Shown piece by piece: positions 11,506 to 27,455 of a stretch of 27,469 nucleotides of DNA. The stretch's first letter is position 1. Every line of letters starts with the position of its first letter. This DNA comes from a virus. Location: IMG/VR virus record IMGVR_UViG_3300037119_001561, positions 1 through 27,469 of that record; one strand, 5' to 3'. Below the pieces are notes generated by a model that worked only from the letters and a program-made list of their open reading frames with translations, was not told the DNA's origin and did no database searches. Position numbers and translations under genes: made by a program.

Positions 11506-12145
11506 CGGGTCGGCCTCTGTACTCATGCTCGTCGATTCTCTTTCCGGCCAAGCCCATTACACAGGGCAACGATGTGTCGATACCACGTAGCTTCGGACTG
11601 TCGATGTCTGCGAGAGCCTTGACCTCTGTGATCCACTCCGACGTCCCTAGACAATGGTAGTCGACGAAGTCGAACGTGTTCCGAGGAAGTATGCCTTCGA
11701 GGAACGACTGCCTGAATGCTTTGTGGATGATTCTGTTGAGGCATCGTGGCACACCGAGTGTAGTCATGTAGCCCATCTTGTCTAGGGCCGTAGTGCACTT
11801 GAGGACCTCAACCAGGCTCTTACCCTGAGCAACGCCCATGTACTGAAAGCCATTACGCAGATGCTTCTTGAAGTCCAGGGCCAAGTCAATAGTGCGATCA
11901 CACTCACCCATAGCATCGGGAACCACGATCTCATGAACGCCGAGCTGTGCAGCGATGTTGAAGAGATCATCCCACTCCGTCTCGACACCTTCCGCAACCC
12001 CGTTGTCCAGGATCTTGAAGTCACTTCCCCCCTTGTAGTGGTTTAAGTACATCGGATATCGGCACAAATGAGGTAGTACCATCTGATACCTCGTCATCCC
12101 CGTCAGTCCCAACATCTCCATCGGCGTTATCAGGGCTACCTGCAC
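11405..12145 (-). CDS. dpdA: DpdA, 7-deazaguanine DNA transglycosylase (TGT-like)
   Basis: DpdA swaps guanine in DNA for preQ0, the DNA counterpart of tRNA-guanine transglycosylase. The 246 residues follow the small phage DpdA plan: VALITPMEMLGL, then FKILDNGVAEG (D47), HEIVVPDAMGECDRTIDLAL (D77), QYMGVAQGKS, and a late LRGIDTSLP. The TGT zinc site is absent, as expected for short phage forms. The start is GTG 12145 with AAAGAGG four bases ahead. It lies 125 bases inside the MazG-like frame, but the first residues are conserved-looking, so I accept the overlap. QueC, QueD, QueE and FolE are encoded just upstream on the same strand and supply its substrate. Confidence 0.88.
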   Translation of the reverse strand: MQVALITPMEMLGLTGMTRYQMVLPHLCRYPMYLNHYKGGSDFKILDNGVAEGVETEWDDLFNIAAQLGVHEIVVPDAMGECDRTIDLALDFKKHLRNGFQYMGVAQGKSLVEVLKCTTALDKMGYMTTLGVPRCLNRIIHKAFRQSFLEGILPRNTFDFVDYHCLGTSEWITEVKALADIDSPKLRGIDTSLPCVMGLAGKRIDEHEYRGRPDDFFGAIPTEWQYNESYHNCAKFLTWAQAPPVG

Positions 12146-12440: not shown

Positions 12441-12456
12441 ATTATACTCTACCCCT

Positions 12457-13047
12457 CTAGCCCTTATCAACGTGACGGAAGAACTCTGCACGTGCCTGCT
12501 TTTCAGGATCCAGGAAGACCCCCAACATCGTCGACGTGATCGTTTTGACACCTGGAGCCTGTACGCCTCTGATCGTCATACACATGTGTTCGGCCTCCAT
12601 AACGATCCCAAGGCCAAGAGGTTCCTCGAGCATGTCGAACAGGTAGTGTGCGATTGCGTCAGTCAGATCCTCTTGCGTCCAAAGACCCTTCGACCAATAC
12701 TTGACCGCGCGTGGAAACTTTGACAGCCCGGCGATCTTCCCAATAGGGATATAACCGATGTGGGCGTAGCCAGAGAACGGAATCAAGTGATGAGCACACA
12801 AGGACACAAACGGAATGTCCTTGATGACGATCATCTCGTCCTTGCGGAGGTCGTTGTCAAAGACTGTGAACTCGAACTCTTCGGGTGTAGTCAAGTCGTG
12901 CAGCATGTTCAGAAAACGGCGAGGTGTTTCTTGTAGGTGTTGACTGTCTTCCCACCGAGCATTCGGGACGGCACGCATTAGAAAGCGTCGAGTCCTGACA
13001 ATGGCTCGACGTTCCTTTATTACACTCCTCTCAGTGTCGGAGACCAA
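12457..13047 (-). CDS. folE: GTP cyclohydrolase I (FolE type)
   Basis: Converts GTP to 7,8-dihydroneopterin triphosphate, the first step toward preQ0. Signatures are QETPRRFLNML, CAHHLIPFSG, GYIPIGKIAGLSKFPR and EAEHMCMTIRG, which contain the zinc Cys/His ligands and the GTP-binding glutamate. The end QARAEFFRHV is typical. The start is uncertain. TTG 13047 gives a 196-residue protein with a complete first helix but overlaps queE by 28 bases. ATG 12978 would lose that helix, and the longest frame begins at 13104. GAGAGGAG at about 13027-13034 suggests a start near the queE stop, possibly at a rare codon. It is followed directly by the MazG-like gene. Confidence 0.92.
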   Translation of the reverse strand: MVSDTERSVIKERRAIVRTRRFLMRAVPNARWEDSQHLQETPRRFLNMLHDLTTPEEFEFTVFDNDLRKDEMIVIKDIPFVSLCAHHLIPFSGYAHIGYIPIGKIAGLSKFPRAVKYWSKGLWTQEDLTDAIAHYLFDMLEEPLGLGIVMEAEHMCMTIRGVQAPGVKTITSTMLGVFLDPEKQARAEFFRHVDKG

Positions 13048-13706
13048 ATGTACTTGTGCACCTGTACGTTCAACTTCCAATCCAACTTCTCCTTGACTAG
13101 CCAATCGACGATGGCGGCATCGTCAGCCTTACCCCACACTGCGCCTACGTAGAACTGGGCCAAGCACCCTTGGCCTACTAACTCTTGGTACTCATGCTTC
13201 GCTTCGTACAAGTCGTTCTCGTTTGCCACTACGAACTTGATAGCGTCCTTGCTGAGTAGGGACAGCGCATTCTTTGTACGAACGTCTCTCAACTTGCCAG
13301 CTTCACCTGAACCTTGAAGCTTCCAATCCATGATGAACTTCATACCGGTTAGTGCCCAAGCGGGAAACAAGAATGAACCATTGGAGAAGCACTCCAACTT
13401 GAAGTTCTCGTCCCAGAGATATCTGGCGAGAGTGTACAGTTCATCTTCTTTCTGGAGGAAAGGTTCCCCACCCGTCCAACAGACCCACTTGACTGGCTTC
13501 TTCTCTAGGCAGTCCAAGACTATGTCGTCGATCGTCTTGACTCTAGAATCGACACGCCAGATCTCTGGGAAGATGGCGTACGGAGTGTCACAAGGCCAGC
13601 CTGCACATCTCATGTTGCATCCAGCGAAGCGAAGGAACTGAGTCAGCTCACCAGTCCTTGGTCCTTCACCTTGTGTACTCACGTAGTGTTCACTTACTCT
13701 CAACAC
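13020..13706 (-). CDS. queE: QueE, 7-carboxy-7-deazaguanine synthase (radical SAM)
   Basis: Converts 6-carboxytetrahydropterin to 7-carboxy-7-deazaguanine with SAM and a 4Fe-4S cluster. The 228 residues start with SEHYVSTQGEGPRTGELTQF, the QueE signature, and continue with the cluster loop CNMRCAGWPCDT (C30, C34, C39). Spacing is CX3CX4C rather than the usual CX3CX2C. VCWTGGEPFLQ follows as the SAM-binding GGEP motif. The start is GTG 13706 with GGAGG five bases ahead. The small membrane ORF upstream overlaps it by 17 bases. The third step in the preQ0 route, it lies between queD and folE. Confidence 0.93.
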   Translation of the reverse strand: MLRVSEHYVSTQGEGPRTGELTQFLRFAGCNMRCAGWPCDTPYAIFPEIWRVDSRVKTIDDIVLDCLEKKPVKWVCWTGGEPFLQKEDELYTLARYLWDENFKLECFSNGSFLFPAWALTGMKFIMDWKLQGSGEAGKLRDVRTKNALSLLSKDAIKFVVANENDLYEAKHEYQELVGQGCLAQFYVGAVWGKADDAAIVDWLVKEKLDWKLNVQVHKYIWSPTLRGV

Positions 13707-13776
13707 TTCGCCTCCCCCACCAGTAGCCTAGGCCCCAGATGGCACAGCCAAGAAGGACCCCAAAGAGGAATTCCAT
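13690..13776 (-). CDS. 28-residue membrane micropeptide, translationally coupled
   Basis: A short frame reads MEFLFGVLLGCAIWGLGYWW then GRRSVESK: one hydrophobic helix and a basic tail, a plausible single-pass inner-membrane peptide. Its ATG shares a base with the queD stop (TAATG), GGGAGGG lies just ahead, and its end overlaps the queE start. It fills the only gap between queD and queE. No family is recognised. It may simply keep ribosomes moving between the two enzymes. Confidence 0.5.
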   Translation of the reverse strand: MEFLFGVLLGCAIWGLGYWWGRRSVESK

Positions 13777-14207
13777 TAACCCTCCCAACTAGCACCGTTA
13801 TGTAGGCCCTCTTCGAGAACCGTACGGTACCTGTATTGAAGTCCGAACAACTGTCGAGCCGACTGCCCAATGTACCTAGCGATGGACTCGGTCGTTGGGT
13901 CTGAGGTGAACAGACGAATTCCAGGCGGATACAACTCTATGCCCTCTGGCTTCTTCGAAACGTCACGAAGCTGCCCGAGCCAAGGATCCTTCTCCCACAG
14001 AAGTAGACGATGGTCGAACTCCTTGTCGAGGAACGCTTTGAACCATTCCTTTAGGACATGGAAGTCGATGATGATCCCACGTTCGTCGACGTCACCGAAG
14101 ACCTCGAGTGTACACACCCAAGAGTGGCCATGGATGTTCTGACACTTACCAGGCAGTTGAAGCCGGTGAGCCATTTCAAAGTTGTGCTTCACTGTCACTG
14201 TCTGCAT
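13776..14207 (-). CDS. queD: QueD, 6-carboxy-5,6,7,8-tetrahydropterin synthase
   Basis: Second step of preQ0 synthesis, from dihydroneopterin triphosphate to 6-carboxytetrahydropterin. The 143-residue protein has the tunnelling-fold hallmarks: FEMAHRL (zinc ligand H14), catalytic C22 in GKCQNIHGHSW with H26 and H28, then GIIIDFHVLKEW and KEFDHRLLL. The C-terminal part (FTSDPTTESIARYIGQ) has the usual PT-x-E-x-x-A helix. The start is ATG 14207 with GGGAG five bases ahead, 32 bases inside the preceding gene. Slightly longer than E. coli QueD, with a linker near residues 85-95. Confidence 0.93.
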   Translation of the reverse strand: MQTVTVKHNFEMAHRLQLPGKCQNIHGHSWVCTLEVFGDVDERGIIIDFHVLKEWFKAFLDKEFDHRLLLWEKDPWLGQLRDVSKKPEGIELYPPGIRLFTSDPTTESIARYIGQSARQLFGLQYRYRTVLEEGLHNGASWEG

Positions 14208-14511
14208 CGTACTCCCTTCTGTAGAGTACTAATGAGATGACAGAGAAGACTGCCCTGTCTAGGTAGGCATCATCTACGTATGACGCCGTAGCTGTTCCTC
14301 GAGTCTTCCAGCCCTTGAGGAACGCCTGATGTTTCGCCAGTAGGACATCGCACGCTTGAAGTGGTGTAAGGCTCTCCATGTCGGCGATGTCAAGAATGTT
14401 CTGGTAGGCATCCTCACCTCCATACTCTAGGGCCTTCTCCCTGTGGTGCTCTACCAAAGACATGAGCGCGGATTCGAACTCGTCATCTGGGTCTAGGACG
14501 ATGCCGGTCAT
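14176..14511 (-). CDS. DUF6378-like small helical protein
   Basis: Starts at ATG 14511, overlapping the queC stop (ATGA). The longer frame upstream is a shadow. The 111 residues read like phage proteins with a YGGEDAYQNILDIADM segment, LTPLQACDVLLAKHQAFLKGW, and a final DDAYLDRAVFSVISLVLY helix with a conserved-type Asp. That layout resembles the DUF6378/nucleotide-modification-associated families of all-alpha, MazG-like folds. The match is from memory and moderate. The operon place between queC and queD suggests a supporting role in deazaguanine metabolism, but no catalytic site is evident. Confidence 0.55.
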   Translation of the reverse strand: MTGIVLDPDDEFESALMSLVEHHREKALEYGGEDAYQNILDIADMESLTPLQACDVLLAKHQAFLKGWKTRGTATASYVDDAYLDRAVFSVISLVLYRREYDADSDSEAQL

Positions 14512-15209
14512 CGGTTCGCCATGATCTCGTAGCCCGGGTCCTCGTAGTCCGTCGGGTCGGTGACCTCCGCCAGAACGAATGCCTCTTTTCGCTCGACGCA
14601 TGTGCCGCATCTTCCGCAATGGATGTCCCCTCCCATGTAGCACGACCACGTCTTGGTCCAGTCAACCGCTAGCGTATGACCCTGGCTAACGATGTCAGCC
14701 TTGGAGGCGAAGATGAACGGTGTGTACAGGTGATCAGCCCAGGCACCCCAGAAGCCATCTGTTGCCACGAAGAGTACTTCGTTCATCTTCTCGGCAAAGA
14801 GAGGTCGGCAGTCAGGATAGACAGCATGGTCACCAGAGTGGATACCTACAGCGACCTGATCGTACTCGTTAGCGACGGCAAAGCCGGCGGCGATCGAGAT
14901 CATGATCATGTTTCGGTTCGGGACTACGGTTGCCTTCATCGACTCTGCTTCGTAGTGTCCTTCTGGGACATCGACATTGATGTCAGTCAGAGCTGACCCT
15001 TTCAAGAGGTCTCGCATGAATCTCATGTCGACTAGAGTCCAGGGGACTTCGAGGTCCTTACAGTTCTGTTCGGCGAAGAACAGTTCCTTGTTATGGCGCT
15101 GACCATAGTTGAAACTGATCACGCCCAGATGCTTCTCTCCGTCGTCGTGGAGCATATGGAGTAGCGTGACGCTATCCATACCACCGCTGACGATTGCAAG
15201 TGTTGACAT
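14508..15209 (-). CDS. queC: QueC, 7-cyano-7-deazaguanine (preQ0) synthase
   Basis: Makes preQ0 from 7-carboxy-7-deazaguanine, ammonia and ATP. The 233 residues start with the PP-loop LAIVSGGMDSVTLL (residues 4-17), have NYGQRHNKEL and VVPNRNMIMISIAAGFA, and end with the structural zinc site formed by C190, C198, C201 and C204 (SCYMGGDIHCGRCGTC). VGIHSGDHAVYPDCRP is also typical. AAGGAG lies four bases before ATG 15209. It is the first gene of the deazaguanine cluster in transcription order, just after the primase-helicase. No amidotransferase domain is fused, so its product should be preQ0 itself. Confidence 0.95.
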   Translation of the reverse strand: MSTLAIVSGGMDSVTLLHMLHDDGEKHLGVISFNYGQRHNKELFFAEQNCKDLEVPWTLVDMRFMRDLLKGSALTDINVDVPEGHYEAESMKATVVPNRNMIMISIAAGFAVANEYDQVAVGIHSGDHAVYPDCRPLFAEKMNEVLFVATDGFWGAWADHLYTPFIFASKADIVSQGHTLAVDWTKTWSCYMGGDIHCGRCGTCVERKEAFVLAEVTDPTDYEDPGYEIMANR

Positions 15210-17962: not shown

Positions 17963-18729
17963 GTCTCGTTGTCCTCTCGGTAAATGAGTCGATGTAAGGT
18001 CTGCATCGTTGGGTCAATGACTGCTTCCGGGAGTGGCTCCGGGGCGTCGCGCCACTTTGCGACGTGTTTCTCTGTTGCACTCGTCAACAGAAGTCTTTGG
18101 TTCTGTCCGTCGACGACCTTGATGTACATGTACATCACGATGTCTACGAACCCACTGACCTCGTTGCTGAGTTTTGCCGACAGGGACGGCTTGATGGTTA
18201 CTACGCCTGTCTTGGGATCCCTGTTGTCCATAGCGAGGCAAGTGAACAGACAGTTCATCGGAAGGTCACGGAAAGCCCGAACCATCCTTCTGATCTGTTC
18301 TGTGTTCTTACCCCACTCGCCAATCCCAGGCAGGTCTGGGTCTCGATCCGGATCCTTCTTGAAGACCTTCTCCATGATACCATACATAGAGAACTTCTGC
18401 ATTTCAGTCAGCGAATCGATGACGACTGTCTTGTACGGAGTCTTACCTTTGTAGAGGTCGTCGTACACCTTCTGAACGTCGTCGAAACTGTTCACTCGGA
18501 CGACGTCGACGTTTGGATACTTTGACCTGAGAGACAAAGTTCCACCTTCGACGTCTACGAACAGTACTGGATTCATTTCAGGTACGGCGAGAGCAGACCC
18601 ACACAACATGGTCTTGCCCACTCCGGGGTCACCATACACCAAGAAGTTGAACCATGGTGTACGATCGATGACTTGGTCGACCTTGAGGCCTCCAAGAGTT
18701 CTTTGCGTCAGTGTATCAACCGTTGTCAA
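17959..18729 (-). CDS. Sak4-like RecA-superfamily ATPase (AAA_24)
   Basis: The core has Walker A VYGDPGVGKT (Lys about residue 39), LFVDVEGG, Walker B YKTVVIDSLTEMQ and a KLSNEVSGFVDIVMYMYI segment. This is the plan of phage Sak4/AAA_24 proteins, single-domain Rad51/RecA relatives that anneal ssDNA in phage recombination. The frame is open further upstream, but the upstream part overlaps the nuclease gene heavily. I chose TTG 18729, which has AAGGAG ten bases ahead and gives 256 residues. The overlap with the nuclease stop is then 14 bases. Neighbours (nuclease before, putative SSB after) support a homologous recombination or replication-restart module. Confidence 0.82.
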   Translation of the reverse strand: MTTVDTLTQRTLGGLKVDQVIDRTPWFNFLVYGDPGVGKTMLCGSALAVPEMNPVLFVDVEGGTLSLRSKYPNVDVVRVNSFDDVQKVYDDLYKGKTPYKTVVIDSLTEMQKFSMYGIMEKVFKKDPDRDPDLPGIGEWGKNTEQIRRMVRAFRDLPMNCLFTCLAMDNRDPKTGVVTIKPSLSAKLSNEVSGFVDIVMYMYIKVVDGQNQRLLLTSATEKHVAKWRDAPEPLPEAVIDPTMQTLHRLIYREDNET

Positions 18730-19756
18730 CCTGGTAGTTCTCCTTGAGGATCCATTCCACGTCTGAACCGTCGTTGATTGCCATACACGGAAGACGGTAG
18801 TCGCAGAAGCGGCAACTGAACTTGTTCGGGTTTGGGTAGATTCTGATTTGAGGGTCAAGCATGTCAGACGTTTCCATACTGATCTGCTTGCCCAGGTTCT
18901 CCAACTCCTCCTGTGACCTGTGTACCTGCGTCCGCTTGAAGTACGTCTTACCGTCAGCTTGCAGGAAGTTCAGGTAGTCAGTGTACAGTTGGATCGGTTC
19001 GTTGGCCTCCGTCAACGTCTGCATCACCATCTCGTAGGATGTATTCTGTTGACGGTTGACAGAGAACCAACGACCTTGCCTCTGCGAGTTGTTCATCGCA
19101 GGGGGCTGGGGGTATCCTTTAAACAGTTCGTTGTAGATAACCCCTGCAACCTTGATGCCGAGCTGCTCTTGCATAGCCCAAGCGTACGAACCACATTGTT
19201 CGTCCAACTCCAGGAATGGCAACTCGTCTTCCATCCTGGCAGTTGTCTTGTGGTCAACGATCCAGTACCGATCGTCGAAGTCTTCGATCAGAAGGTCCAT
19301 ACGACCCCGATACATAGCATCGTGACCTGTGATCGGTACTTCGAACTTGGCCTCAACAAGGACAGGTATGAACTTATCGTGTGCTGGAGCCCATTGGAAG
19401 TAGTGACGCAGCATCCCTAGACCAAGATCCATTCGGTCTTCGAAGTCGATCCTGTCCTCTTCGGAGAGTTCACCACGAGCTGCCTTGTGCTCCTTCGTGA
19501 CCTCGATGAACCTCGCCAACGTGCACTGCTGTACGACTTCACGGTCAGCACGCCAGAGTTGGGGTTCGTAGTACACCTCAAGCGCCGCATGAATCGCTGT
19601 ACCGAACTCAAGGGCCTTAGCCGGTTGCTTCGGTTTCAGGTTCTGCCGGATACGTGACGACAGGTCCCATTTCCGACGACACTGTTTGAAAGTGATCCTG
19701 TCGGAAGTATGTATCGGTATAACGCTCATCGGTACTATAAGTTTACTCGTGTCCAT
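18716..19756 (-). CDS. Cas4/RecB-like PD-(D/E)XK nuclease with Fe-S cysteines
   Basis: 346 residues. C26 in TFKQCRRKWDL and the C-terminal CRFCDYRLPC give the four-Cys pattern of Cas4/AddB Fe-S nucleases. The nuclease core is YRGRMDLLIEDF (D154), then WIVDHKTT (D168, K170), followed by EQCGSYAWAMQEQLGI, the QxxxY-type motif. It should resect DNA ends to give ssDNA for the Sak4-like protein encoded next. ATG 19756 overlaps the preceding gene by 14 bases. ATG 19729 is also possible, and neither has a good ribosome binding site. No Cas1/Cas2 or CRISPR repeats are near, so this is a phage exonuclease and not an adaptation gene. Confidence 0.85.
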   Translation of the reverse strand: MDTSKLIVPMSVIPIHTSDRITFKQCRRKWDLSSRIRQNLKPKQPAKALEFGTAIHAALEVYYEPQLWRADREVVQQCTLARFIEVTKEHKAARGELSEEDRIDFEDRMDLGLGMLRHYFQWAPAHDKFIPVLVEAKFEVPITGHDAMYRGRMDLLIEDFDDRYWIVDHKTTARMEDELPFLELDEQCGSYAWAMQEQLGIKVAGVIYNELFKGYPQPPAMNNSQRQGRWFSVNRQQNTSYEMVMQTLTEANEPIQLYTDYLNFLQADGKTYFKRTQVHRSQEELENLGKQISMETSDMLDPQIRIYPNPNKFSCRFCDYRLPCMAINDGSDVEWILKENYQVDNG

Positions 19757-20009
19757 TGGACTGAATCAAGGGGTCATCCAAGATTTCCGGCTCTACAATT
19801 GCAATGTTCAAGTCCTCCAGGAGCTTGATGACGAAGTCAACTGCTTCCTTTCGACTCGAAGTCTGGATGAGTTCCCACGACCTTGACCACAGGCCTGTAT
19901 GTAGAGAGTCGAAGTAGGACTCGATCCTCTTCTCGAGGCTAGTCCTAGTTGTTCGCCACCCAATAGGGGTCAGGACGAACGAACCTTGGTCTACGTTGTA
20001 GTCAGTCAC
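19743..20009 (-). CDS. Small protein of unknown function (88 residues)
   Basis: Begins at GTG 20009 with GGAGGGGAA just ahead and overlaps the DJ-1-like stop by 8 bases. The first 25 residues look beta-like (GSFVLTPIGWRTTRTS). The rest is helical and acidic (SLEKRIESYFDSLHTGLW, RKEAVDFVIKLLEDLNI). No cysteine clusters, membrane helices or recognisable family. Tight packing between the DJ-1-like and nuclease genes supports it as a real gene. Confidence 0.65.
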   Translation of the reverse strand: MTDYNVDQGSFVLTPIGWRTTRTSLEKRIESYFDSLHTGLWSRSWELIQTSSRKEAVDFVIKLLEDLNIAIVEPEILDDPLIQSNGHE

Positions 20010-20631
20010 TCTTCCCCTCCTGAATCTTCCGGATCTTCTCTACGATGGGGATGGGCTTTCGTTCTCGGCCTTTGGGGACATAGCCAGAGTCGACGAGCCG
20101 AACGTCTGGATCAACTCCCAGTAGGACATCGCTGAACGCATTCGCCCACATCTGAGATGCCATCTGATGCTCTGCGGTGACGAGTCTTCCATCGACTGTC
20201 AGAGCCACCGTCTGGAGGATCGCTCCGGCATTGGAAAGGAGTTGGCGGGAACGAACCAGAGGGAAGAACGACACCTTCTTGTCGCGCGCTGCCTCACGGA
20301 TCGTAGGGACCGAACAACAGATTGCCGCAATGGGTTTCTCCTGTTTGTCAGTGAGTCGAACGAACTCTAGGACCTTCTCGTGCTTCCAGTAGAGTTCTGT
20401 GTCGGCCATATTACCTGACACGATCATCAGACCGTCGAAGTCTTCCAGTTCAGCTAGGTCGACATCGTTGATAGTCCTGGCAATCGTGTTCGCTTGGTAC
20501 GTCACTTCGTCGAAGACAGTTGTCTCTGTCGACACTACCTCGAAGTCGATGCCACGCTCTTGCATAACACCGAGTGCCGTCCACAATTCATGGCCATTGT
20601 ACCTTCTGGCACAAACGACCAGTACCTTCAC
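20002..20631 (-). CDS. DJ-1/PfpI family protein
   Basis: 209 residues with the class I glutamine-amidotransferase-like fold. Strand one is MKVLVVCARRYNGHELW (E15), then DFDGLMIVSGNM, and the nucleophile elbow PIAAICCSVPTIREAA with C105. The RQLLSNAGAILQTVALTVDG and RLVTAEHQMASQMWANAFSD strings match the C-terminal half of PfpI/ThiJ proteins. Family functions include deglycase, chaperone and peptidase activities. The residue after the catalytic Cys is Cys, where PfpI has His. GTG 20631 overlaps the previous stop (GTGA). A target for it in phage infection is not known; protein or nucleotide glyoxal repair or defence evasion would be speculation. Confidence 0.8.
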   Translation of the reverse strand: MKVLVVCARRYNGHELWTALGVMQERGIDFEVVSTETTVFDEVTYQANTIARTINDVDLAELEDFDGLMIVSGNMADTELYWKHEKVLEFVRLTDKQEKPIAAICCSVPTIREAARDKKVSFFPLVRSRQLLSNAGAILQTVALTVDGRLVTAEHQMASQMWANAFSDVLLGVDPDVRLVDSGYVPKGRERKPIPIVEKIRKIQEGKSD

Positions 20632-21020
20632 TTCGTGACCTTGTCCTTCTCCTCTGCGAAGCGGACCTTGACCTCCATGGGACCAATGGGCGTAGGCTCA
20701 CCCTTGGCTAGTGCCTGCTTCTCGAGGTCATGATCTTCCTTCCAGTTCTCGTTCACCGAGCCGTCCTCGTTGAGGTCCAGCCGTGCCAGGTAGATCTGGC
20801 CCATACGTGTGAACAGCTTCACGGGTAGGTTGTGGCTCTTGATGTAGGCGTTCAGACACGAGGACAGCGACTGCAACGTCTGCTGCATGCCCGTCCGATC
20901 GATCTGTGCCATCATCATCCCTGACTCGAGGAAGGTCTTGAGCAGAGGATACGACACACGACCTCTGTGGGACTCTCGGAAGTTGGGGATCTCGTTGGGG
21001 TCCACTTCGACAAGTTGCAC
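20628..21020 (-). CDS. Protein of unknown function, first gene after a promoter
   Basis: GTG 21020 has GGAG six bases ahead and follows promoter element 21049-21080. The 130 residues are soluble, with SHRGRVSYPLLKTFLESGM, a helical middle (QQTLQSLSSCLNAYIKSH), a beta pair (VKLFTRMGQIYLARLDL) and a charged tail rich in Lys/Glu. The middle could be a small alpha/beta DNA-binding fold, but no family is recognised. Its place at the head of the DJ-1/recombination transcript suggests early expression. Confidence 0.65.
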   Translation of the reverse strand: MQLVEVDPNEIPNFRESHRGRVSYPLLKTFLESGMMMAQIDRTGMQQTLQSLSSCLNAYIKSHNLPVKLFTRMGQIYLARLDLNEDGSVNENWKEDHDLEKQALAKGEPTPIGPMEVKVRFAEEKDKVTK

Positions 21021-21048: not shown

Positions 21049-21080
21049 ATTATATAGTAGTCAGATGGACTTTCTCAAGA
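21049..21080 (-). promoter_or_regulatory. Promoter element A (repeat family of three)
   Basis: On the - strand, TTGAGA (-35 like) and TATAAT (-10, 21049-21054) are 18 bases apart. The spacer carries GTCCATCTGACT. The two other elements in this window have TATAAT at the same distance (26 bases) from TCTNGA and a related spacer. The leader to GTG 21020 is short. The element begins inside the end of the 75-residue gene upstream. Confidence 0.75.
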
Positions 21081-21302
21081 GGCTTCTTCTGGAGCTTCTC
21101 CTTCTAGGTAGTGATGCTCGATCTTGACTTCTGCGATCTGTCCATCGTAGTTCAGGGTCATCTCGTCACCGTAGGCCAGCAGGAAGAACTCAAATGTGTC
21201 CTTGTCACTCTTCTGGATCTTCACCGTAGCCCAGGGCTTCTTATGTGGACAAGGTGGGTAACATCCGAACGACCTCTTGATACGGTTCCAAAGGTCAGTC
21301 AT
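21075..21302 (-). CDS. Small protein of unknown function (75 residues)
   Basis: Starts at ATG 21302, overlapping the helicase stop (ATGA). The 9 residues further upstream in the frame are not needed. It has a basic N-terminal helix (TDLWNRIKRSF), a CYPPCPHKKPW segment with two Cys and a His, and two or three beta strands ending in an acidic tail. Too small for a certain fold. The two cysteines are not enough for a zinc ribbon. Probably translated together with the SNF2 helicase. Confidence 0.65.
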   Translation of the reverse strand: MTDLWNRIKRSFGCYPPCPHKKPWATVKIQKSDKDTFEFFLLAYGDEMTLNYDGQIAEVKIEHHYLEGEAPEEAS

Positions 21303-22645
21303 ATGTCTCCTAGGAGTTGTTGGATCCACTTGTGCTTCATCTCGATGGTCTGGAAGCGTCCACGGTCGACGGTGTTCTTAGCCATGATGTCTATGACCTG
21401 CACAGATTCAGCTTGGCCAATACGATGGAGCCTGTCTTCGGCTTGGAGATTGAGAGCTGGACTCCAATTTCGATCCAGGAAGATGACTGTTGAGGCGGCA
21501 GTGAGCGTAATACCGACACCACCAGCTTGAACCGTCCCAATGAATAGACGCGTCTTCTTCGATTGGAAGTCACTGACAGCCCTTCCGCGATCTCGTTGAT
21601 CCACGTCTCCTGTGAGAAGCCCATACGTGATTCCTTCCTTCTTCAGTCGCGCTTCCAGTAGGGTAATGAGCTGTTTGAAGTTTGAAAAGACCACGAACTG
21701 TTTGTCTGGGTTGTCTTCGAGGATGTCCATCAAGGCGTCCAGCTTGCTACTAGGTTCGCTTAGACGTACGCCCTCTCCAGTCACCTCAGCATGCGACACT
21801 GCGAACTGTTGGAGACGTACGAGCTGGGCGATAACAGCTGGTGCGATCAGAGGCGTGTCACCTTGCTTATTGACCCACGCCACCATGTCGTTCTTCATCT
21901 GGTTGTACGCCTTACGCTGTACAGGTGAGAGGTCGACCCAGATCTTGTCGTAGTACTTGTCAGGCAGATCAGGAAGCACCTCTTCCTTTGTCCGTCGTAC
22001 GTAGTAGGGTTCGATCTTCGCTAGTAGCGCCGGAACGTTTTTGGGTCCCTTAATGACGTGGTACCCTTGGGGCAACTTGACATCGTACTCAACGTGTTCG
22101 GCGTAGAACTTCCAGAAAGACCCAAACTGCTTCTTGTCAATCCAGTTGAGCGACGACCAGAACTTCTCCGGGTGCCCTGTGGTGGGTGTTCCAGACATGG
22201 CCGTGCGGTACGACGTGGGGATCTTCTTGATCGCCTGTGTCATCTGTGCCTTACGATTCTGCATTCGATGACACTCGTCAGCGATAACATGCATCCATCG
22301 GACAGTGAGCAACTCAGGCATTAGCCTAAGTGCCTCCCAGTGGACGATGAACACTTCATAAGGATTGTTGATAAACTGATCCCATGATCGTGCTCTGTCC
22401 TTCGGGTCGATTGACTTGGCTAGCAAGTCAAACATCTCACAGTGATCTTCCCAGGTGGGAATGACACTCATTGGAGTCACCACTAGTGTTCGGCTACAGC
22501 CGTTTCCACCTAGATCGCGAATGAGTTCGTCTCGCCAGAGCGCCTCTACAGTCTTCCCTGTGCCCATGTCGTTAGCAATCATGACCCCAGGCAGAAGACC
22601 GATCTTGTCCATATCTTCTTGTTGGAAGGGGTACAGTTCAATCAC
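21299..22645 (-). CDS. SNF2-family DEAD/DEAH helicase
   Basis: Starts at GTG 22645, overlapping the previous stop (GTGA); the upstream part of the frame is a shadow. The 448 residues hold both RecA-like lobes: LYPFQQEDMDKIG, Walker A MIANDMGTGKTVEAL, TLVVTPMSVIPTWEDH, Walker B VIADECHRM, AMSGTPTTG, then FVVFSNFKQLITLLEARL, YGLLTGDVDQRDRG, FIGTVQAGGVGITLTAA and QAEDRLHRIGQ. These are motifs I-VI of SNF2 translocases. Phages often carry such genes near replication modules, where they may displace proteins or remodel forks. It has no nuclease domain. Confidence 0.93.
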   Translation of the reverse strand: MIELYPFQQEDMDKIGLLPGVMIANDMGTGKTVEALWRDELIRDLGGNGCSRTLVVTPMSVIPTWEDHCEMFDLLAKSIDPKDRARSWDQFINNPYEVFIVHWEALRLMPELLTVRWMHVIADECHRMQNRKAQMTQAIKKIPTSYRTAMSGTPTTGHPEKFWSSLNWIDKKQFGSFWKFYAEHVEYDVKLPQGYHVIKGPKNVPALLAKIEPYYVRRTKEEVLPDLPDKYYDKIWVDLSPVQRKAYNQMKNDMVAWVNKQGDTPLIAPAVIAQLVRLQQFAVSHAEVTGEGVRLSEPSSKLDALMDILEDNPDKQFVVFSNFKQLITLLEARLKKEGITYGLLTGDVDQRDRGRAVSDFQSKKTRLFIGTVQAGGVGITLTAASTVIFLDRNWSPALNLQAEDRLHRIGQAESVQVIDIMAKNTVDRGRFQTIEMKHKWIQQLLGDI

Positions 22646-22935
22646 GAGTTCACTTCCTCCCCGAGCAGACGACGCAGGACGGCTTTCACTTCGGGCCAAT
22701 CATGTGACCCTCCCCATCGCTGGAACGCCCTGCTCGCTTCGGTTTCGTTGTCGGTGAGCGTGGTTTTGATGGTCAATCGATCACATTTGGTCTGACAAAC
22801 CTCTAGTGCTCGCTCGGCGGCCAGCGCACGTTCGGCCAGATCGCAGACGGCGAGAATTTCAGCTTCGACGCCGACCGGATGAGTCAGCGGTTCGCACCAG
22901 TCGCGCAGGTAGGCGATCTGCTCTCGCGGGGTCAT
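22642..22935 (-). CDS. Protein of unknown function (97 residues)
   Basis: Starts at ATG 22935, overlapping the stop of the small membrane ORF (ATGA). 97 residues, mostly helical, with REQIAYLRDWCEPLTHP, LAVCDLAERALAAERAL and DWPEVKAVLRRLLGEE. The Ala/Arg-rich middle helix could be a coiled coil, and VCQTKC has two cysteines three residues apart. No family is recognised. It ends with GTGA shared by the helicase start, so the helicase is probably coupled to it. Confidence 0.65.
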   Translation of the reverse strand: MTPREQIAYLRDWCEPLTHPVGVEAEILAVCDLAERALAAERALEVCQTKCDRLTIKTTLTDNETEASRAFQRWGGSHDWPEVKAVLRRLLGEEVNS

Positions 22936-23033
22936 AGCGCACCGCCCAGGAACAGAATGACGAGCAAGGCAACACAGCCGACACAAACTCCGGCGATGAA
23001 CCCCCTCCAGGCGATCTGCTCTTGCGTGGTCAT
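22932..23033 (-). CDS. 33-residue single-pass membrane peptide
   Basis: ATG 23033 overlaps the preceding stop (ATGA) and its own stop overlaps the next start (ATGA). It reads MTTQEQIAWRGFIAGVCVGC followed by VALLVILFLGGAL, a short polar N-terminus and one hydrophobic helix of about 22 residues. The two perfect four-base junctions and complete filling of the gap support a real gene. Function unknown. Confidence 0.65.
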   Translation of the reverse strand: MTTQEQIAWRGFIAGVCVGCVALLVILFLGGAL

Positions 23034-23308
23034 GATCCTTCTCCCTTGATCCTCCGCATGAGATCGTCCACGTTGGACAAGTCTGGGATCTGCTTAGTCA
23101 CTGTGAGACCTGATGAGTGTGCCTTCAAGGCATCAGCCAACATGCCTGCTTGCTCTCTCTCCAAGAACAGAACTGTTGAGCCCGTCACCAAGAGGAACTG
23201 AATCAGAACAAGCTCTTGACCGTTCTGCATTCGCGCCGTACCAATCTTGTAGGTGATTGGGGTCGGCTGGGGTTTGATCTCGTTGACTTCGTCACCATTC
23301 ATAACCAT
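23030..23308 (-). CDS. Protein of unknown function (92 residues)
   Basis: ATG 23308 has GGAGGTG six bases ahead. An in-frame ATG two codons later is possible. The sequence reads as a small beta sheet (ITYKIGTARMQNGQELVLIQ, LLVTGSTVLFLERE) followed by a helix (GMLADALKAHS) and an acidic tail (NVDDLMRRIKGEG). No membrane segment, cysteines or known family. It is in the run of small overlapping genes between the ligase and the SNF2 helicase. Confidence 0.65.
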   Translation of the reverse strand: MVMNGDEVNEIKPQPTPITYKIGTARMQNGQELVLIQFLLVTGSTVLFLEREQAGMLADALKAHSSGLTVTKQIPDLSNVDDLMRRIKGEGS

Positions 23309-23513
23309 CTTGCACCTCCAGTTCGTAGACCATGCCTAGGTCGGTCATGTTGTCTTCCTTGAGAACAACGCCACACTCACAAACCCAAAGTCTGTAGGTG
23401 TCAGTGCCTTGCATCTCGTACCAGGTGTCCAAGTTATGCCAGAGGATCCTCCTGTGGCAGTTCTTGCAGATCAGTCCCTTGTCCTTCGTCTCGCTCATCG
23501 TCTGATCTGGCAT
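23292..23513 (-). CDS. Zinc-ribbon small protein
   Basis: ATG 23513 has GAGGGAAG about eight bases ahead. ATG 23498 is an alternative. The 73 residues carry GLICKNCHRRILWHN and VCECGVVLKED, a CxxC...CxC pair typical of zinc ribbons, between aromatic strands. It overlaps the upstream HTH gene by about 80 bases. Such small zinc proteins often bind nucleic acid or act as adaptors. The role here is unknown. Confidence 0.62.
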   Translation of the reverse strand: MPDQTMSETKDKGLICKNCHRRILWHNLDTWYEMQGTDTYRLWVCECGVVLKEDNMTDLGMVYELEVQDGYEW

Positions 23514-23733
23514 CCAACTGCTTCCCTCGTGCGAGAGCTTTCGCCTCCAACGCTTTGTCGGCTGTTCCAACATGAAGAACTCGTCTTCCACAGCGGCAGT
23601 ACTCCGTTTCGATGACCTTGTTCCGGATGTAGTAGTAGATCAATTGTGACGACTTACCACGAAGCTTTGCGTACTCGATCGGTGTCAGCCAACCAACTGT
23701 GTCAGCTTGGTCTTGGATGTCGTACAGTTCCAT
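23434..23733 (-). CDS. Helix-turn-helix (excisionase/MerR-like) DNA-binding protein
   Basis: ATG 23733 is preferred: the longer frame overlaps the SWIM gene. The 99 residues contain WLTPIEYAKLRGKSSQLIYY then YIRNKVIETEYCRCGRRVLHV. This is the winged-HTH plan of excisionase/MerR-type proteins: T-x-x-E-Y-A-K helix, a Y-Y-Y-I-R recognition helix and a wing with CxCG. The C-terminal third is charged (LDARSDDERDEGQGTD) and overprinted by the zinc-ribbon gene. Probably a small regulator. No integrase is near to make it an excisionase. Confidence 0.68.
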   Translation of the reverse strand: MELYDIQDQADTVGWLTPIEYAKLRGKSSQLIYYYIRNKVIETEYCRCGRRVLHVGTADKALEAKALARGKQLDARSDDERDEGQGTDLQELPQEDPLA

Positions 23734-23741
23734 GTCATGTT

Positions 23742-24062
23742 CTATGTCTCCCACGAATGCTCTCCTTGGTGTCCTTCGACGTAGTAGCACTCAGTGATGG
23801 CTTGCATGTTAAACACATGTCCTTTGTTGTTGGTGCCAAAGGTAGTCTTCGCTTGTTTGGCTAGGCACAACGGTACTTGCTCGACGTGCCAGCAGTGTGC
23901 TTGGTATCTCCACCCTTCGCATGTGCACTGGATGCCACGCTCGTCTGGGTACGCAACCACGAAGTGAAAAGTGCCTGGACGAGACCGAGAGGATGCGGAG
24001 AAGACGGTAAGGTTGTCACCCAACTTTGTTAGCTTTGGTTCGTCAGTTTGTTTGATGATCAC
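23742..24062 (-). CDS. SWIM-type zinc finger protein
   Basis: 106 residues from GTG 24062. Residues about 45-60 are CTCEGWRYQAHCWHVEQV, a CxCx(n)CxH SWIM zinc finger preceded by a strand pair (FSASSRSRPGTFHFVVAYPD). SWIM domains bind DNA or proteins in recombination factors and in many phage proteins. The C-terminal part (FNMQAITECYYVEGHQGEHS) has another Cys and His. It lies between the lysozyme-like and HTH genes. Confidence 0.72.
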   Translation of the reverse strand: MIIKQTDEPKLTKLGDNLTVFSASSRSRPGTFHFVVAYPDERGIQCTCEGWRYQAHCWHVEQVPLCLAKQAKTTFGTNNKGHVFNMQAITECYYVEGHQGEHSWET

Positions 24063-24083
24063 TTTGCGTACTTGTCCTTCCGT

Positions 24084-24449
24084 TCAACGACCTGGAGTGC
24101 AGGGCCAAACCGTTTTACCATTGACACGGATAGGCGTCCACGGACCAGTCCCACAGTTCTGGTATAGCCTCCAGGCAATTTCGATATTGACCAGACAATT
24201 ACTTGCGACCTCTTCCCGAGTAAATCCAAGAGCGTCTGCCATGTCCTGGTGTCCGGCCAATTGGAATAGTCCGGACCCGTTACCGTTTCTAGGCGGATTA
24301 CAACTAAGGCCAGACTCCCTTTGGGCGAGCTGTACGAATTTATCTTCATGGGGCGTACCTGCCCAACGGGCTCGGATCAACTCTTCGGGTGAACATGCTG
24401 TTGCAAGCAGCACGAGTACGGCGGCCGCCAGCCGCCGACGACACCTCAA
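24084..24449 (-). CDS. Exported lysozyme-like/transglycosylase protein, probable lipoprotein
   Basis: TTG 24449 overlaps the previous stop (TTGA), with AAGGGGGG ahead. The first 19 residues MRCRRRLAAAVLVLLATAC are a signal peptide with a weak lipobox ending at C19. The mature part has FVQLAQRESGLSCNPPRNGN, GSGLFQLAGHQDMA, NIEIAWRLYQNCG and PWTPI, the pattern of resuscitation-factor/transglycosylase-like lysozyme folds with candidate catalytic E45. Four more cysteines could form disulfides. It is in the early/replication strand and not near the holins, so a role in infection onset or cell envelope change fits as well as lysis. Function inferred. Confidence 0.75.
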   Translation of the reverse strand: MRCRRRLAAAVLVLLATACSPEELIRARWAGTPHEDKFVQLAQRESGLSCNPPRNGNGSGLFQLAGHQDMADALGFTREEVASNCLVNIEIAWRLYQNCGTGPWTPIRVNGKTVWPCTPGR

Positions 24450-24754
24450 TGGCCCCCCTTATCTTCGGCTGCGAGCCGAGCGAGATAGTCCTCGTACGCC
24501 TGTCGTTGAGAGTCAGGTAGCACAGGAAACTCCTTTGGACCTTCGGTCCTGTTGGGGATCGAACCGTCTTGATTGATCTGAACGATCCAGCTGGTGTTGT
24601 ACCAAGGACAGACCTCTGTCTCACACTTGTAGGTCTCGACCTTGGAGCCTCTGGGACCAGGCACAGAGCCCAGAAGTGTACCGTAATGCTTACACTTCGG
24701 ACACATCCTGGCTTGTTCAAACGTTGTCTGCGTCGACTCGGGCAGATCAGCCAA
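24446..24754 (-). CDS. Zinc-ribbon protein (102 residues)
   Basis: Starts at TTG 24754, overlapping the upstream gene by 8 bases. The residues include RMCPKCKHYGTLLG and YKCETEVCPWYNTSW, two CxxC/Cx4C knuckles forming a TFIIS-like or rubredoxin-like zinc ribbon. A charged helical end follows (SQRQAYEDYLARLAAED). Function unknown. It may bind nucleic acid or act as a transcription adaptor. It sits directly upstream of the lysozyme-like lipoprotein and shares a TTGA junction with it. Confidence 0.65.
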   Translation of the reverse strand: MADLPESTQTTFEQARMCPKCKHYGTLLGSVPGPRGSKVETYKCETEVCPWYNTSWIVQINQDGSIPNRTEGPKEFPVLPDSQRQAYEDYLARLAAEDKGGH

Positions 24755-25142
24755 CCCTAGCCTCCAGAATCTCGACCCGGTTGTTCAGGTCGTTGATCAG
24801 TTCCTGCTGGTCACGAAGCCTCTGACTGAGAATGTCGTCAGCCTTTGTGGGCTTGTACACCGTGTGCGCTCCAAACAGAGTCTCTGTCGGTGGCTGCAGA
24901 AGCAACCACGCACTCGGCGAACTCCCACCACCTCGTGCCAGCTGACGAATACAATCCATCCGCTTGAGGTGTTGAGTGACGGACGTGAAGAGCGGAACGG
25001 CTAGGTTCAGTCGCTTGAACAGCTTCGTTGTGTAGCCTGTCCAGACGAGCATCCCATCGTCGTTCACTTCGGCTTCCTTCTCCATTGTTGAGTAGACCTC
25101 CACACAGTGGTGGAAGACTGCGGGCATTGGGCGTGTGTTCAC
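24747..25142 (-). CDS. Winged-helix DNA-binding protein with C-terminal coiled coil
   Basis: 131 residues from GTG 25142, overlapping the previous stop (GTGA). The region GMLVWTGYTTKLFKRLNLAV through LFTSVTQHLKRMDCIRQLAR and SSPSAWLLLQPP reads as a winged helix: two helices, a wing with Gly/Ser and a closing strand. The last 35 residues (LRDQQELINDLNNRVEILEA) form a heptad coil, probably for dimerisation. Similar small regulators occur in actinobacteriophages. A target is not known. Confidence 0.65.
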   Translation of the reverse strand: MNTRPMPAVFHHCVEVYSTMEKEAEVNDDGMLVWTGYTTKLFKRLNLAVPLFTSVTQHLKRMDCIRQLARGGGSSPSAWLLLQPPTETLFGAHTVYKPTKADDILSQRLRDQQELINDLNNRVEILEARVG

Positions 25143-25363
25143 TTCCTCCTCGCTTCCAGTAGTTTGATCTTAAGGTCAACCGCGTCTGCGTGTTGCCAGT
25201 TCAACTCGTCGACTGCCCTCAGTAAGTCTTCGGGCTGATCGAACATCGGTGCCTGTTCGACATCCTGGACCTGTTTGATTGACTCTTCGTAGCCTTCAAT
25301 CCACATGTCCAAGATATCGGTTAGGTACTCGGCCTGCCGTTCGGTCATCTCTATCGTCACCAA
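25139..25363 (-). CDS. Small helical protein (74 residues), first gene after promoter C
   Basis: Starts at GTG 25363 after GGGAGAG, 21 bases downstream of a TATAAT. All helical and acidic: MTERQAEYLTDILDMWIEGY, then DLLRAVDELNWQHADAVDLK, ending in a basic tail. No family is recognised. As the first gene behind a promoter in an operon of DNA-binding proteins it may be a small regulator or partner. Confidence 0.65.
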   Translation of the reverse strand: MVTIEMTERQAEYLTDILDMWIEGYEESIKQVQDVEQAPMFDQPEDLLRAVDELNWQHADAVDLKIKLLEARRK

Positions 25364-25383
25364 TTGCTCTCCCTTCTCCTATA

Positions 25384-25415
25384 ATTATACAACAACCATA
25401 TGGCCCAAATCTAGA
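25384..25415 (-). promoter_or_regulatory. Promoter element C (repeat family of three)
   Basis: On the - strand, TCTAGATTTGGGCCATATGG lies upstream and TATAAT is at 25384-25389, 26 bases after the first T of TCTAGA, exactly as in elements A and B. The -35 like hexamer is TAGATT with an 18-base spacer. The leader to GTG 25363 is about 14 bases. It lies between the ligase stop and the 74-residue gene. Confidence 0.7.
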
Positions 25416-25417
25416 TG

Positions 25418-26269
25418 TCAGTCCAGATCGGGTCGCATACGAAGGAACTGGGGGAACCTCGGTGTGCCGGCCGTGAGGCCGAAGTGTTTGATCTCACACA
25501 TCTTCCCATCGTAGGCATGGAAGAAGGTTGCAAAGCGGCCACGCATGATATCATCCATGCCGGCCACCCAGAAGGTCAAGCCGTCAGAGTTGAGAACGTT
25601 CAACGCTCCGCACATGCCAACGTACTTGCCCTCACCTTCCTTCCAGCTGATGACCCGAACGTCCATGGTGTCGAACTTCTTGACCTTGTACCAGGTATTG
25701 GCTCTCCGTTTACCGGAATGGTACGCGGCCGTTGGGTTCTTCAACATGACCCCTTCGCCTCCAGCATTGACGTAGGCAACATACCACTCCTCGTCAAACC
25801 GGTCCATGCGAGGGACAAGCACCACAGGGGCTTCGTAGTCGTCAGGGAAGTAGGTTGATATCCACCAGTCGAACATCGCACGTCGACGTTCCCAGTCCTC
25901 GAGGCTCGACGGCTGGTCGAAGATGAAGTACTGGATCTGTTCGTCGTTGTCAAGTTGCTTCTCGAGGGCGACGTCGACGCCGGACCCAAGGACTCGTGTG
26001 GTCTTGTTGAAGTCGATGGTCATTGCACCAGCCCAGTAGCCCAGTTCACCGTCGAGGTAGGTGCCTCGTAGCTGTGTCTTGGCTAGGGCTTCAACGATGT
26101 GTGGCACCTTCTCGGTGAGGTCTTTGTTACCTCGACTCGTCAGCGTGACTACACCATTGTTGTCCTTGTAGGAAATACAACGGATGCCATCGAGCTTGGG
26201 CTCCATGACGTAGTTTGGGTACCTGTCCACCCGAGCAATCTCGAGTGGACAGGCAAGCATTGGTTCCAT
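25418..26269 (-). CDS. ATP-dependent DNA ligase
   Basis: 283 residues. Seals nicks using ATP. Motif I is VMEPKLDGIRCISY with the adenylated Lys near residue 24. Further motifs: TLTSRGNKDLT, YLDGELGYW (III), FIFDQPSS (IIIa), GGEGVMLKNPTAAY (IV) and WYKVKKFD (V). From about residue 200 an OB fold follows (DVRVISWKEGEGKYVG). The N-terminal domain is complete, but the protein is shorter than T7 ligase (about 359 residues), so this is a minimal form. The start is ATG 26269, sharing a base with the upstream stop (TAATG). Confidence 0.93.
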   Translation of the reverse strand: MEPMLACPLEIARVDRYPNYVMEPKLDGIRCISYKDNNGVVTLTSRGNKDLTEKVPHIVEALAKTQLRGTYLDGELGYWAGAMTIDFNKTTRVLGSGVDVALEKQLDNDEQIQYFIFDQPSSLEDWERRRAMFDWWISTYFPDDYEAPVVLVPRMDRFDEEWYVAYVNAGGEGVMLKNPTAAYHSGKRRANTWYKVKKFDTMDVRVISWKEGEGKYVGMCGALNVLNSDGLTFWVAGMDDIMRGRFATFFHAYDGKMCEIKHFGLTAGTPRFPQFLRMRPDLD

Positions 26270-26508
26270 TAGATGTCTGGGACCTCCCGCTCTTCTATGA
26301 CGACTTCGAACGTGATCTTTGGGTCGTACCTGGCCTCTGTCCCATCGGGAAACGTGACCGAGAAGTCAGGGACGATGAAAGTGACTTTGCCATCAAGTGT
26401 GGCCCAAAGGTCGGACTCAGGACGAGTATCAAGTACGCCGTCGTAGTAGACCCTGGCACACATCACAGGGATCTTGACCTTCGGGATGTAGATGTGTTCG
26501 TCGCTCAC
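26269..26508 (-). CDS. Protein of unknown function, beta-rich (79 residues)
   Basis: Starts at GTG 26508, sharing a base with the previous stop (TAGTG), and ends one base into the ligase start (TAATG). The composition suggests a small beta sandwich: IYIPKVKIPVMCARVYYDG, DLWATLDGKVTFIVPDFSVT, then ITFEVVIEEREVP. No cysteine cluster or transmembrane helix. Coupling to the ligase suggests shared expression, perhaps a partner. No family is recognised. Confidence 0.65.
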   Translation of the reverse strand: MSDEHIYIPKVKIPVMCARVYYDGVLDTRPESDLWATLDGKVTFIVPDFSVTFPDGTEARYDPKITFEVVIEEREVPDI

Positions 26509-26936
26509 TACGACTGCAGTCCTTCGAGGTACCGCGTCTCGTAGTAGTCGGCCATCTGCATGATTGCCTTCTCGACCTCTTCGAACGTCCGACCCTTAGT
26601 GTCGTTCCACCGCTCGATCTGCCAGCCTTCGTAGTGGATGTTGTCCATGTCGAGAGGGAACATCTCCGCCAGATGCTTCTTGACTTCCTTCAAGAGTGAC
26701 TCGTACACGTACCTCCGTTGGATGGGAAGCGTGTTGAGTTGCTTCCTGTAGCCGAACCTGAACACTTCCGCTTTGCCGAAGAGGACAGTGTTGTAGGCGC
26801 CCATGAAGCACACCTGGTTCTCGTCGTTCTCGAGTGTGCCTTGCACCCAGCCCTGGTCGTGGAGGACCTCTCTCATCTCGTGGAGCACGTCCGCCTTGAG
26901 TTCGTTCAGGTTGTCGTAGTGGTCCTTAAGTGCCAT
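26508..26936 (-). CDS. DUF6197-like protein, first gene of the ligase operon
   Basis: ATG 26936 is chosen over 26954 because GAGAGGAG lies eight bases ahead and the distance to promoter B fits. The 142 residues have LKADVLHEMREVLHDQGWVQ, then NDENQVCFMGAYNTVLFGK, resembling the GW-x-QG...C-x-xGA motif of DUF6197. That small helical domain is common in actinobacteria and their phages and has no settled function. The rest is helical with many aromatic and acidic residues (EGWQIERWND, AIMQMADYYETRYLEG). Family match moderate. Confidence 0.62.
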   Translation of the reverse strand: MALKDHYDNLNELKADVLHEMREVLHDQGWVQGTLENDENQVCFMGAYNTVLFGKAEVFRFGYRKQLNTLPIQRRYVYESLLKEVKKHLAEMFPLDMDNIHYEGWQIERWNDTKGRTFEEVEKAIMQMADYYETRYLEGLQS

Positions 26937-26964
26937 CTTGGCAACTCCTCTCATCGATACCCTA

Positions 26965-26996
26965 ATTATATATGAGTCAACTGGACCTTATCTAGA
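26965..26996 (-). promoter_or_regulatory. Promoter element B (repeat family of three)
   Basis: On the - strand, TCTAGATAAGGTCCAGTTGA leads by 26 bases to TATAAT (26965-26970). The -35 like hexamer is TAGATA with an 18-base spacer. The distance from TATAAT to the start codon at 26936 equals that of element A. The terminator at 27001-27038 ends just ahead of it, so a new transcript begins here. Confidence 0.78.
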
Positions 26997-27000
26997 GGCA

Positions 27001-27038
27001 GAAGAAAAGCCCCCGGAGAGTGTGCGTCTCCGGGGGCT
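27001..27038 (-). terminator. Rho-independent terminator
   Basis: AGCCCCCGGAGA (27008-27019) and TCTCCGGGGGCT (27027-27038) form a perfect 12-bp stem with a 7-base loop. On the - strand the stem is followed by TTTTCTTCT. It follows the stop of the 132-residue gene by about 18 bases and ends its transcript before promoter B. Confidence 0.92.
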
Positions 27039-27056: not shown

Positions 27057-27455
27057 TCAGGCTTCTGCGGGTGCCGTGGTGGCCGATGCCTTCTCGGCCT
27101 CCTTGGCAGCCTTGTCCGCGGCGCGCTGTGCCTTCCGCGTTTCCTTCTCATCGAACCACGTCAGTGCCGGCTCGATTTCCACGATGAAGTGCCCGTCCGT
27201 GTTCTGCTTGAACGGGAAGTTCTTGGAGTTCTTGATGAAGCCGTACACCATCTGCGGCCGGAAGTCGGATCCGATCTTCGCCGAGATCCGCTTCGCGAAC
27301 GCAACCGGGGTCTCCCAACCCTCAGGCACGGGGTCCTTCTTGGTCTTCTCGACCTTTGCCTCGGCAGGCTCCTCAGCGACTTCGGTCGTCTCTTCGGTGG
27401 ACATGTCACTTTCTCCTTCTGGTTCTTGTGTTGGTTGTTGGGGCTTGCGAGCCAT
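27057..27455 (-). CDS. Acidic/Lys-Ala-rich protein of unknown function (132 residues)
   Basis: ATG 27455 has AAAGGAG seven bases ahead. ATG 27404 is internal. The first 45 residues are acidic and disordered-looking (STEETTEVAEEPAEAKVEKT). The middle has a compact part, EGWETPVAFAKRISAKIG, then FRPQMVYGFIKNSKNFPFKQ, which may be a small helix-turn-helix-like domain. The last 30 residues are a Lys/Ala/Glu helix. Abundant small early proteins of this kind are common in phages. A strong terminator right after it suggests high expression. No family is certain. Confidence 0.62.
   Translation of the reverse strand: MARKPQQPTQEPEGESDMSTEETTEVAEEPAEAKVEKTKKDPVPEGWETPVAFAKRISAKIGSDFRPQMVYGFIKNSKNFPFKQNTDGHFIVEIEPALTWFDEKETRKAQRAADKAAKEAEKASATTAPAEA

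Follow-up and report, generated by a model that had tools for sequence, protein, structure and literature searches.

The window, the whole stretch of DNA analyzed here, is an entire metagenomic virus record of 27,469 b from an uncultivated soil phage. Its left 7.5 kb carry rightward genes, among them the gene for the tape measure protein, and the remainder forms a leftward replication arm with genes for DNA polymerase, the preQ0 pathway, primase, an AAA ATPase, an exonuclease, a helicase (21299-22699, named by inspection of its sequence), and a ligase. The phage is probably lytic. No relatives of the window at DNA level were present among 50,697 phage records, and a host search with the primase against bacterial genome contigs gave no match. 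The closest cultured primases are mostly from actinobacteriophages (170 of 298 records from Microbacterium phages and 68 of 298 from Gordonia phages). The gene at 8507-9163 (- strand) encodes a Thr-rich product with a signal-like N-terminus and a tail made up of LPTTG, a hydrophobic stretch, and KRK. Such tails of LPTTG followed by hydrophobic and positively charged residues are typical of Gram-positive sortase substrates, and the product is a putative phage-encoded, sortase-anchored protein for the host surface. Based on the closest cultured primases and on this LPTTG tail, we infer that the host is actinobacterial. The genes for GTP cyclohydrolase I, a radical-SAM (QueE-like) protein, PTPS/QueD, and QueC lie next to each other at 12457-15209 (- strand) and make up a preQ0 (7-deazaguanine) pathway, which suggests that the phage DNA is modified. 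They are adjoined by a conserved gene without a Pfam match (11405-12145), whereby one may guess that its product is possibly a DNA transglycosylase.

The window contains exactly three matches to the pattern TCTNGA-N20-TATAAT, all on the - strand, namely 21049-21080 (A), 25384-25415 (B), and 26965-26996 (C), whereas none of 100 dinucleotide shuffles of the window contains any. The scan thus recovered the three elements of the original prediction, in position and strand, and nothing else. If the elements are read as TNGANN promoters, TCTNGA corresponds to TC plus the -35 hexamer up to its fourth base, and the hexamers are TTGAGA, TAGATT, and TAGATA for A, B, and C, each separated by 18 nt from a perfect TATAAT. 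With start codons ~21-29 nt downstream, the elements have the make-up of sigma70/SigA-type promoters. The expected GTCCA or GGCCA block is present in all three as G(T/G)CCA (GTCCA, GGCCA, and GTCCA by position), and 7 columns among the first 15 of the spacer are identical in all three (G..CCA..TG..T), an outcome reached by none of 100,000 within-spacer shuffles (p<1e-5). A shared TGACT and an equal distance of 29 bases from TATAAT to the start codon had been assigned to A and B; this label was wrong, since the true pair consists of the sites at 21049 (GTG at 21020) and 26965 (ATG at 26936). The site at 25384 has TGGTT in place of TGACT and a leader of ~21-24 bases. As there are only four TATAAT sequences on the - strand of the window, i.e., those of the three elements and one at 12446, there was little room for selection bias. 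The latter belongs to a further site at 12441-12470 (- strand, TTGATA-N18-TATAAT), which we rejected: its -35 encodes the end of FolE, the site runs across the stop codon of folE and the start codon that follows, and the relative L011 has AGGAGGATATAGTATG in this stretch, i.e., a ribosome-binding site with a start codon. The TATAAT at 12446 therefore looks like a coincidence of coding and ribosome-binding sequence.

All three elements lie in gaps between genes (54 nt for A, 54 nt for B, and 102 nt for C). Promoter A (TC-TTGAGA-N18-TATAAT, spacer AAGTCCATCTGACTACTA) has 11 of 12 consensus matches at a spacer of 18 and precedes a - strand operon of the genes 20628-21020, 20002-20631 (DJ-1/PfpI), 19743-20009, and 18716-19756 (Cas4/RecB-like exonuclease); presumably the transcript continues into the AAA ATPase and primase genes. 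Orthologues of the DJ-1/PfpI-family protein and of the 130-aa protein encoded at 20002-21020 (- strand) were each found in 7 related loci, and the two genes are neighbors in L007 and L018, where gene order was read. Promoter B (TC-TAGATT-N18-TATAAT, spacer TGGGCCATATGGTTGTTG) is situated between the ligase gene and the gene 25139-25363, ahead of a - strand cluster that includes the winged-HTH gene 23434-23733 and the helicase gene. Within this early operon, and outside a lysis module, a gene at 24084-24449 (- strand) encodes a small lipoprotein-like protein without a Pfam match, which by eye resembles a lytic transglycosylase. Promoter C (TC-TAGATA-N18-TATAAT, spacer AGGTCCAGTTGACTCATA) precedes, on the - strand, the genes 26508-26936 (DUF6197), 26269-26508, and 25418-26269 (ATP-dependent DNA ligase). 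It follows directly after a strong intrinsic terminator-like hairpin (27008-27038, - strand; 12 pairs, of which 9 are G-C, then TTTTCTTCT), which separates it from the gene 27057-27455.

A near-identical contig, IMGVR_UViG_3300037071_001413, extends 2.2 kb further than the window and reveals a fourth promoter, D, ~15 nt beyond the right end and upstream of the gene 27057-27455 (sequence CGTTGATTAGTTCCAGCGCTACCACATATAAT; TATAAT at 2213-2218 in L004). CCA stands in the same spacer register in all four promoters (p=1e-5), whereby D fits the spacer sequence of the others in part: TCCA is present and TGRYT is absent. As to the proposal of a regulator site common to three transcripts, the shared sequence is present at all three, and the number of predicted transcripts has to be raised to at least four.

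Further evidence came from 80 loci of a viral collection that had been recruited by their primase (identity ~45-85%). In 41 related records, some of them near-duplicates, TTGA-N19/20-TATAAT gave 72 matches and the reversed pattern gave none. The distance between TTGA and TATAAT in the fetched loci peaks at 17, 18, and 19 with 11, 31, and 7 cases, and any other spacing has 0-7. An orthologue of the exonuclease 18716-19756 lies directly downstream of 25 of 53 promoters in the relatives; the window differs from this arrangement in that the exonuclease gene is reached from promoter A via three small genes. All five orthologues of the gene 27057-27455 with enough upstream DNA are directly preceded by a promoter, with TTGC and TAAAAT variants counted, and in L041 the orthologue of 25139-25363 follows a promoter of the same class at a distance of 21 nt. 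The closest relative, L011 (primase identity 82%), has a rearranged A operon, and the genes surrounding B and C are absent from its contig. No comparable repeated promoter set was seen in L091-L093, which are partial genomes of three cultured actinophages. Taken together, the location of the elements, the peak in spacing, and their repeated occurrence in relatives strongly support that they are promoters, as far as sequence can tell. It is very improbable that they are chance matches or an over-reading of AT-rich gaps. A general promoter scan of the window would fit such an explanation, as it gave 10 matches versus 10.9 in shuffles, and so would the coincidental TATAAT at 12446; the specific pattern has an expectation of 0, though, and its counterpart in relatives appears only in the forward sense, with a spacing peak, while the elements themselves sit in gaps ahead of operons.

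The original prediction had also claimed that conservation between -35 and -10 goes beyond what a promoter needs, and the spacer comparison bears this out. In the window, the signature GTCCATCTGACT (GKCCANNTGRYT) lies at 21059-21070 in A, with copies at 25394-25405 and 26975-26986, all on the - strand. A search with GKCCANNTGRYT returned three matches, all of them within the promoters (in shuffles 0.62 on average and at most 2), so that within the 27-kb window there are no stoperator-like copies outside promoters. Each phage has its own version, namely GKCCANNTGRYT here, AAATGNCNTANGTC in L007, and TTTCNNANNGCCC in L041. In L007 three near-identical CTCTTGAAATGNCNTANGTC copies occur, and in the L041 record four promoters with 19-nt spacers carry GCCC at the same place in the spacer; one of these promoters lies outside the tested set. 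In order to quantify the difference, 41 sites from 23 non-redundant genomes were compared, whereby the 37 within-genome pairs come from seven genomes only. Spacer identity was 0.436 within and 0.301 between genomes (p<5e-5), and it was still 0.422 within genomes when the window phage was left out (p=0.00045). The within-genome excess is confined to the 6 nt before the -35 (p=0.0014) and the spacer (p<0.0002); it is weak at +1 to +10 after the -10 (p=0.04) and not significant further out. For A-D, identity amounts to 0.20-0.26 upstream, 0.53 in the spacer, and 0.33-0.36 downstream. The similarity is uneven among the window promoters, with GGCCA and TGGTT in B.

Since this excess fades beyond ~10 nt outside the promoter, the shared part appears to be a short site and not a recently copied segment. 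A recent duplication of promoters within each genome, by which the likeness would be due to descent and not to selection of a binding site, is accordingly quite improbable. It would account for the within-genome similarity of the spacers and for the L007 copies, but copied segments would have brought their flanks along unless the duplication is old, and the three window promoters hold a few specific columns next to columns that have diverged. It is possible, though rather unlikely, that the sites are just plain strong sigma70/SigA promoters, whose extra similarity reflects optimized polymerase contacts at the -35 upstream edge, in spacer shape, and in the discriminator, without a dedicated regulator. 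The near-consensus -10, the 18-nt spacing, and a weak spacer profile that spans the genomes of the family (C-rich, then G-rich; z 4.9, strict set) would fit this, and the early promoters of T4 carry an extended consensus that arises without a dedicated regulator (PMC2988021). However, the signatures differ from phage to phage and are stronger within genomes, which generic contacts fail to explain unless the hosts differ, and the -35 hexamers of B and C are poor, not optimized. We therefore favor, with a probability of roughly 0.6, host-polymerase promoters that are addressed by one common, probably phage-encoded, trans-acting factor at a genome-specific site. This reading draws its support from the spacers being more alike within than between genomes and from the flanks beyond 10 nt having no significant excess.

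The closest described kind of promoter is that of the ESAS promoters of cluster K mycobacteriophages. These are intergenic SigA-like promoters with a -35/-10 spacing of 17-18 and a conserved extra sequence, of which Adephagia has seven copies; the ESAS measures 46-47 bp and includes an inverted repeat of 15-17 bp that is imperfectly conserved, and the role of the extra sequence is unknown (PMC11373665). Like these, A, B, C, and D are several intergenic copies with conservation beyond the hexamers. In contrast to the ESAS, the extra block of the window phage is shorter, asymmetric, and extends across -35 and spacer, and its spacers have no significant inverted repeat: dyad symmetry tested against within-spacer shuffles gave p=0.09-0.20 for the window sites and p=0.17 for the strict family set. 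A palindromic operator (CCATATGG in B, CC..GG in relatives) was likewise rejected because its dyad scores do not exceed those of shuffles, also in a free-centre test; without the window phage the dyad test gave p=0.01, but at a different centre. Furthermore, cluster K phages are temperate, whereas no tyrosine or serine integrase families were found in the 22 relatives of at least 42 kb, records that may be incomplete. In cluster O phages, SigA promoters have been predicted, and a 17-bp repeat distinct from them is located mostly away from promoters (PMC4351075).

Three further systems offer functional parallels and not memberships. The middle promoters of T4 combine a MotA box at -30 with a sigma70 -10 (PMC2988021); the window promoters share with them a perfect -10, a phage-specific element around the -35 and spacer, and the presumed nature of a co-regulated class, but keep a recognizable -35 at 18 nt from the -10. 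The operators and stoperators of L5-type (cluster A) phages function in immunity and occur outside promoters as well (PMC9283540). The signature resembles them in being short, asymmetric, oriented with transcription, and common to several loci, yet in the 27-kb window it is located inside promoters only. In classical MerR systems a palindromic operator lies in a -35/-10 spacer of 19-20 nt, while BldC binds asymmetric direct repeats (PMC5859096). As there, a conserved block, the predicted operator, is positioned in the spacer, and the fold of the candidate regulators is a winged HTH like that of MerR, BldC, and Xis; unlike in classical MerR promoters, the spacer has 18 nt and no significant palindrome.

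These candidates are two related winged-HTH proteins, A1 with 132 aa (27057-27455, - strand), which is encoded by the first gene after promoter D, and A2 with 99 aa (23434-23733, - strand). Their kinship is indicated by an hhalign probability of 95.7, and one member of the A1 family matches HTH_17 (3.5e-5). AF2 models of both have the order helix-helix-strand-strand-helix at a pLDDT of ~86-96, i.e., an HTH with a wing. Structural neighbors of both proteins are BldC, Xis (excisionases), the terminase small subunit, and SoxR/MerR regulators at Z 6-9, which speaks for a DNA-binding fold in the models and says nothing on function. With Foldseek the 132-aa protein had no significant match (best E 0.19), and its best structural match, BldC (Z 7.5), comes from comparing these Foldseek candidates once more. 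Both proteins are the leading candidate regulators of A-D.

In the favored model of a common trans-acting factor, the host RNA polymerase (sigma70/SigA-type) would start at TNGANN-N18-TATAAT and launch successive leftward operons of the replication arm, with the winged-HTH gene from D, the DUF6197 and ligase genes from C, the small genes up to the helicase from B, and the exonuclease to primase genes from A. The promoters have in common an asymmetric sequence that is specific to the genome and extends from ~6 nt ahead of the -35 through the spacer, here G-K-C-C-A-NN-T-G-R-Y-T, and one factor would bind the -35/spacer region of all of them and switch the operons together. This factor might either repress the operons later in infection or activate those with a poor -35 (TAGATT in B, TAGATA in C). 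The sequence, position, and spacing of the elements, their recurrence, and the within-genome signature are observed, and from these we infer promoter activity, binding, and the direction of control. Since no integrase was found in the 22 relatives of at least 42 kb, whose records may be incomplete, a role in lysogenic immunity is less likely than a switch for timing within a lytic cycle. More specifically, a BldC/Xis-like winged-HTH protein expressed from the first promoter might sit asymmetrically in the spacers of all replication promoters, with a fast-evolving, phage-specific code that co-evolves with the protein; this extension, which would hold for lytic soil phages of one large family, we regard as doubtful.

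To our knowledge, almost nothing is known about how uncultivated soil phages regulate their genes. With a promoter class that is recognizable by sequence and carries a phage-specific spacer tag, operons can be mapped in dozens of metagenomic genomes. Should a dedicated regulator bind there, it would allow compact timing of the lytic program by use of the host polymerase, and such a regulator could be tested with synthetic promoters even though the phage is uncultured. The best genome seen for a study of the promoter class is L041 (record G018), where several TTGATTTC-type promoters are distributed over the replication arm, at 2629, 4146, 5092, 7381, and 14977.
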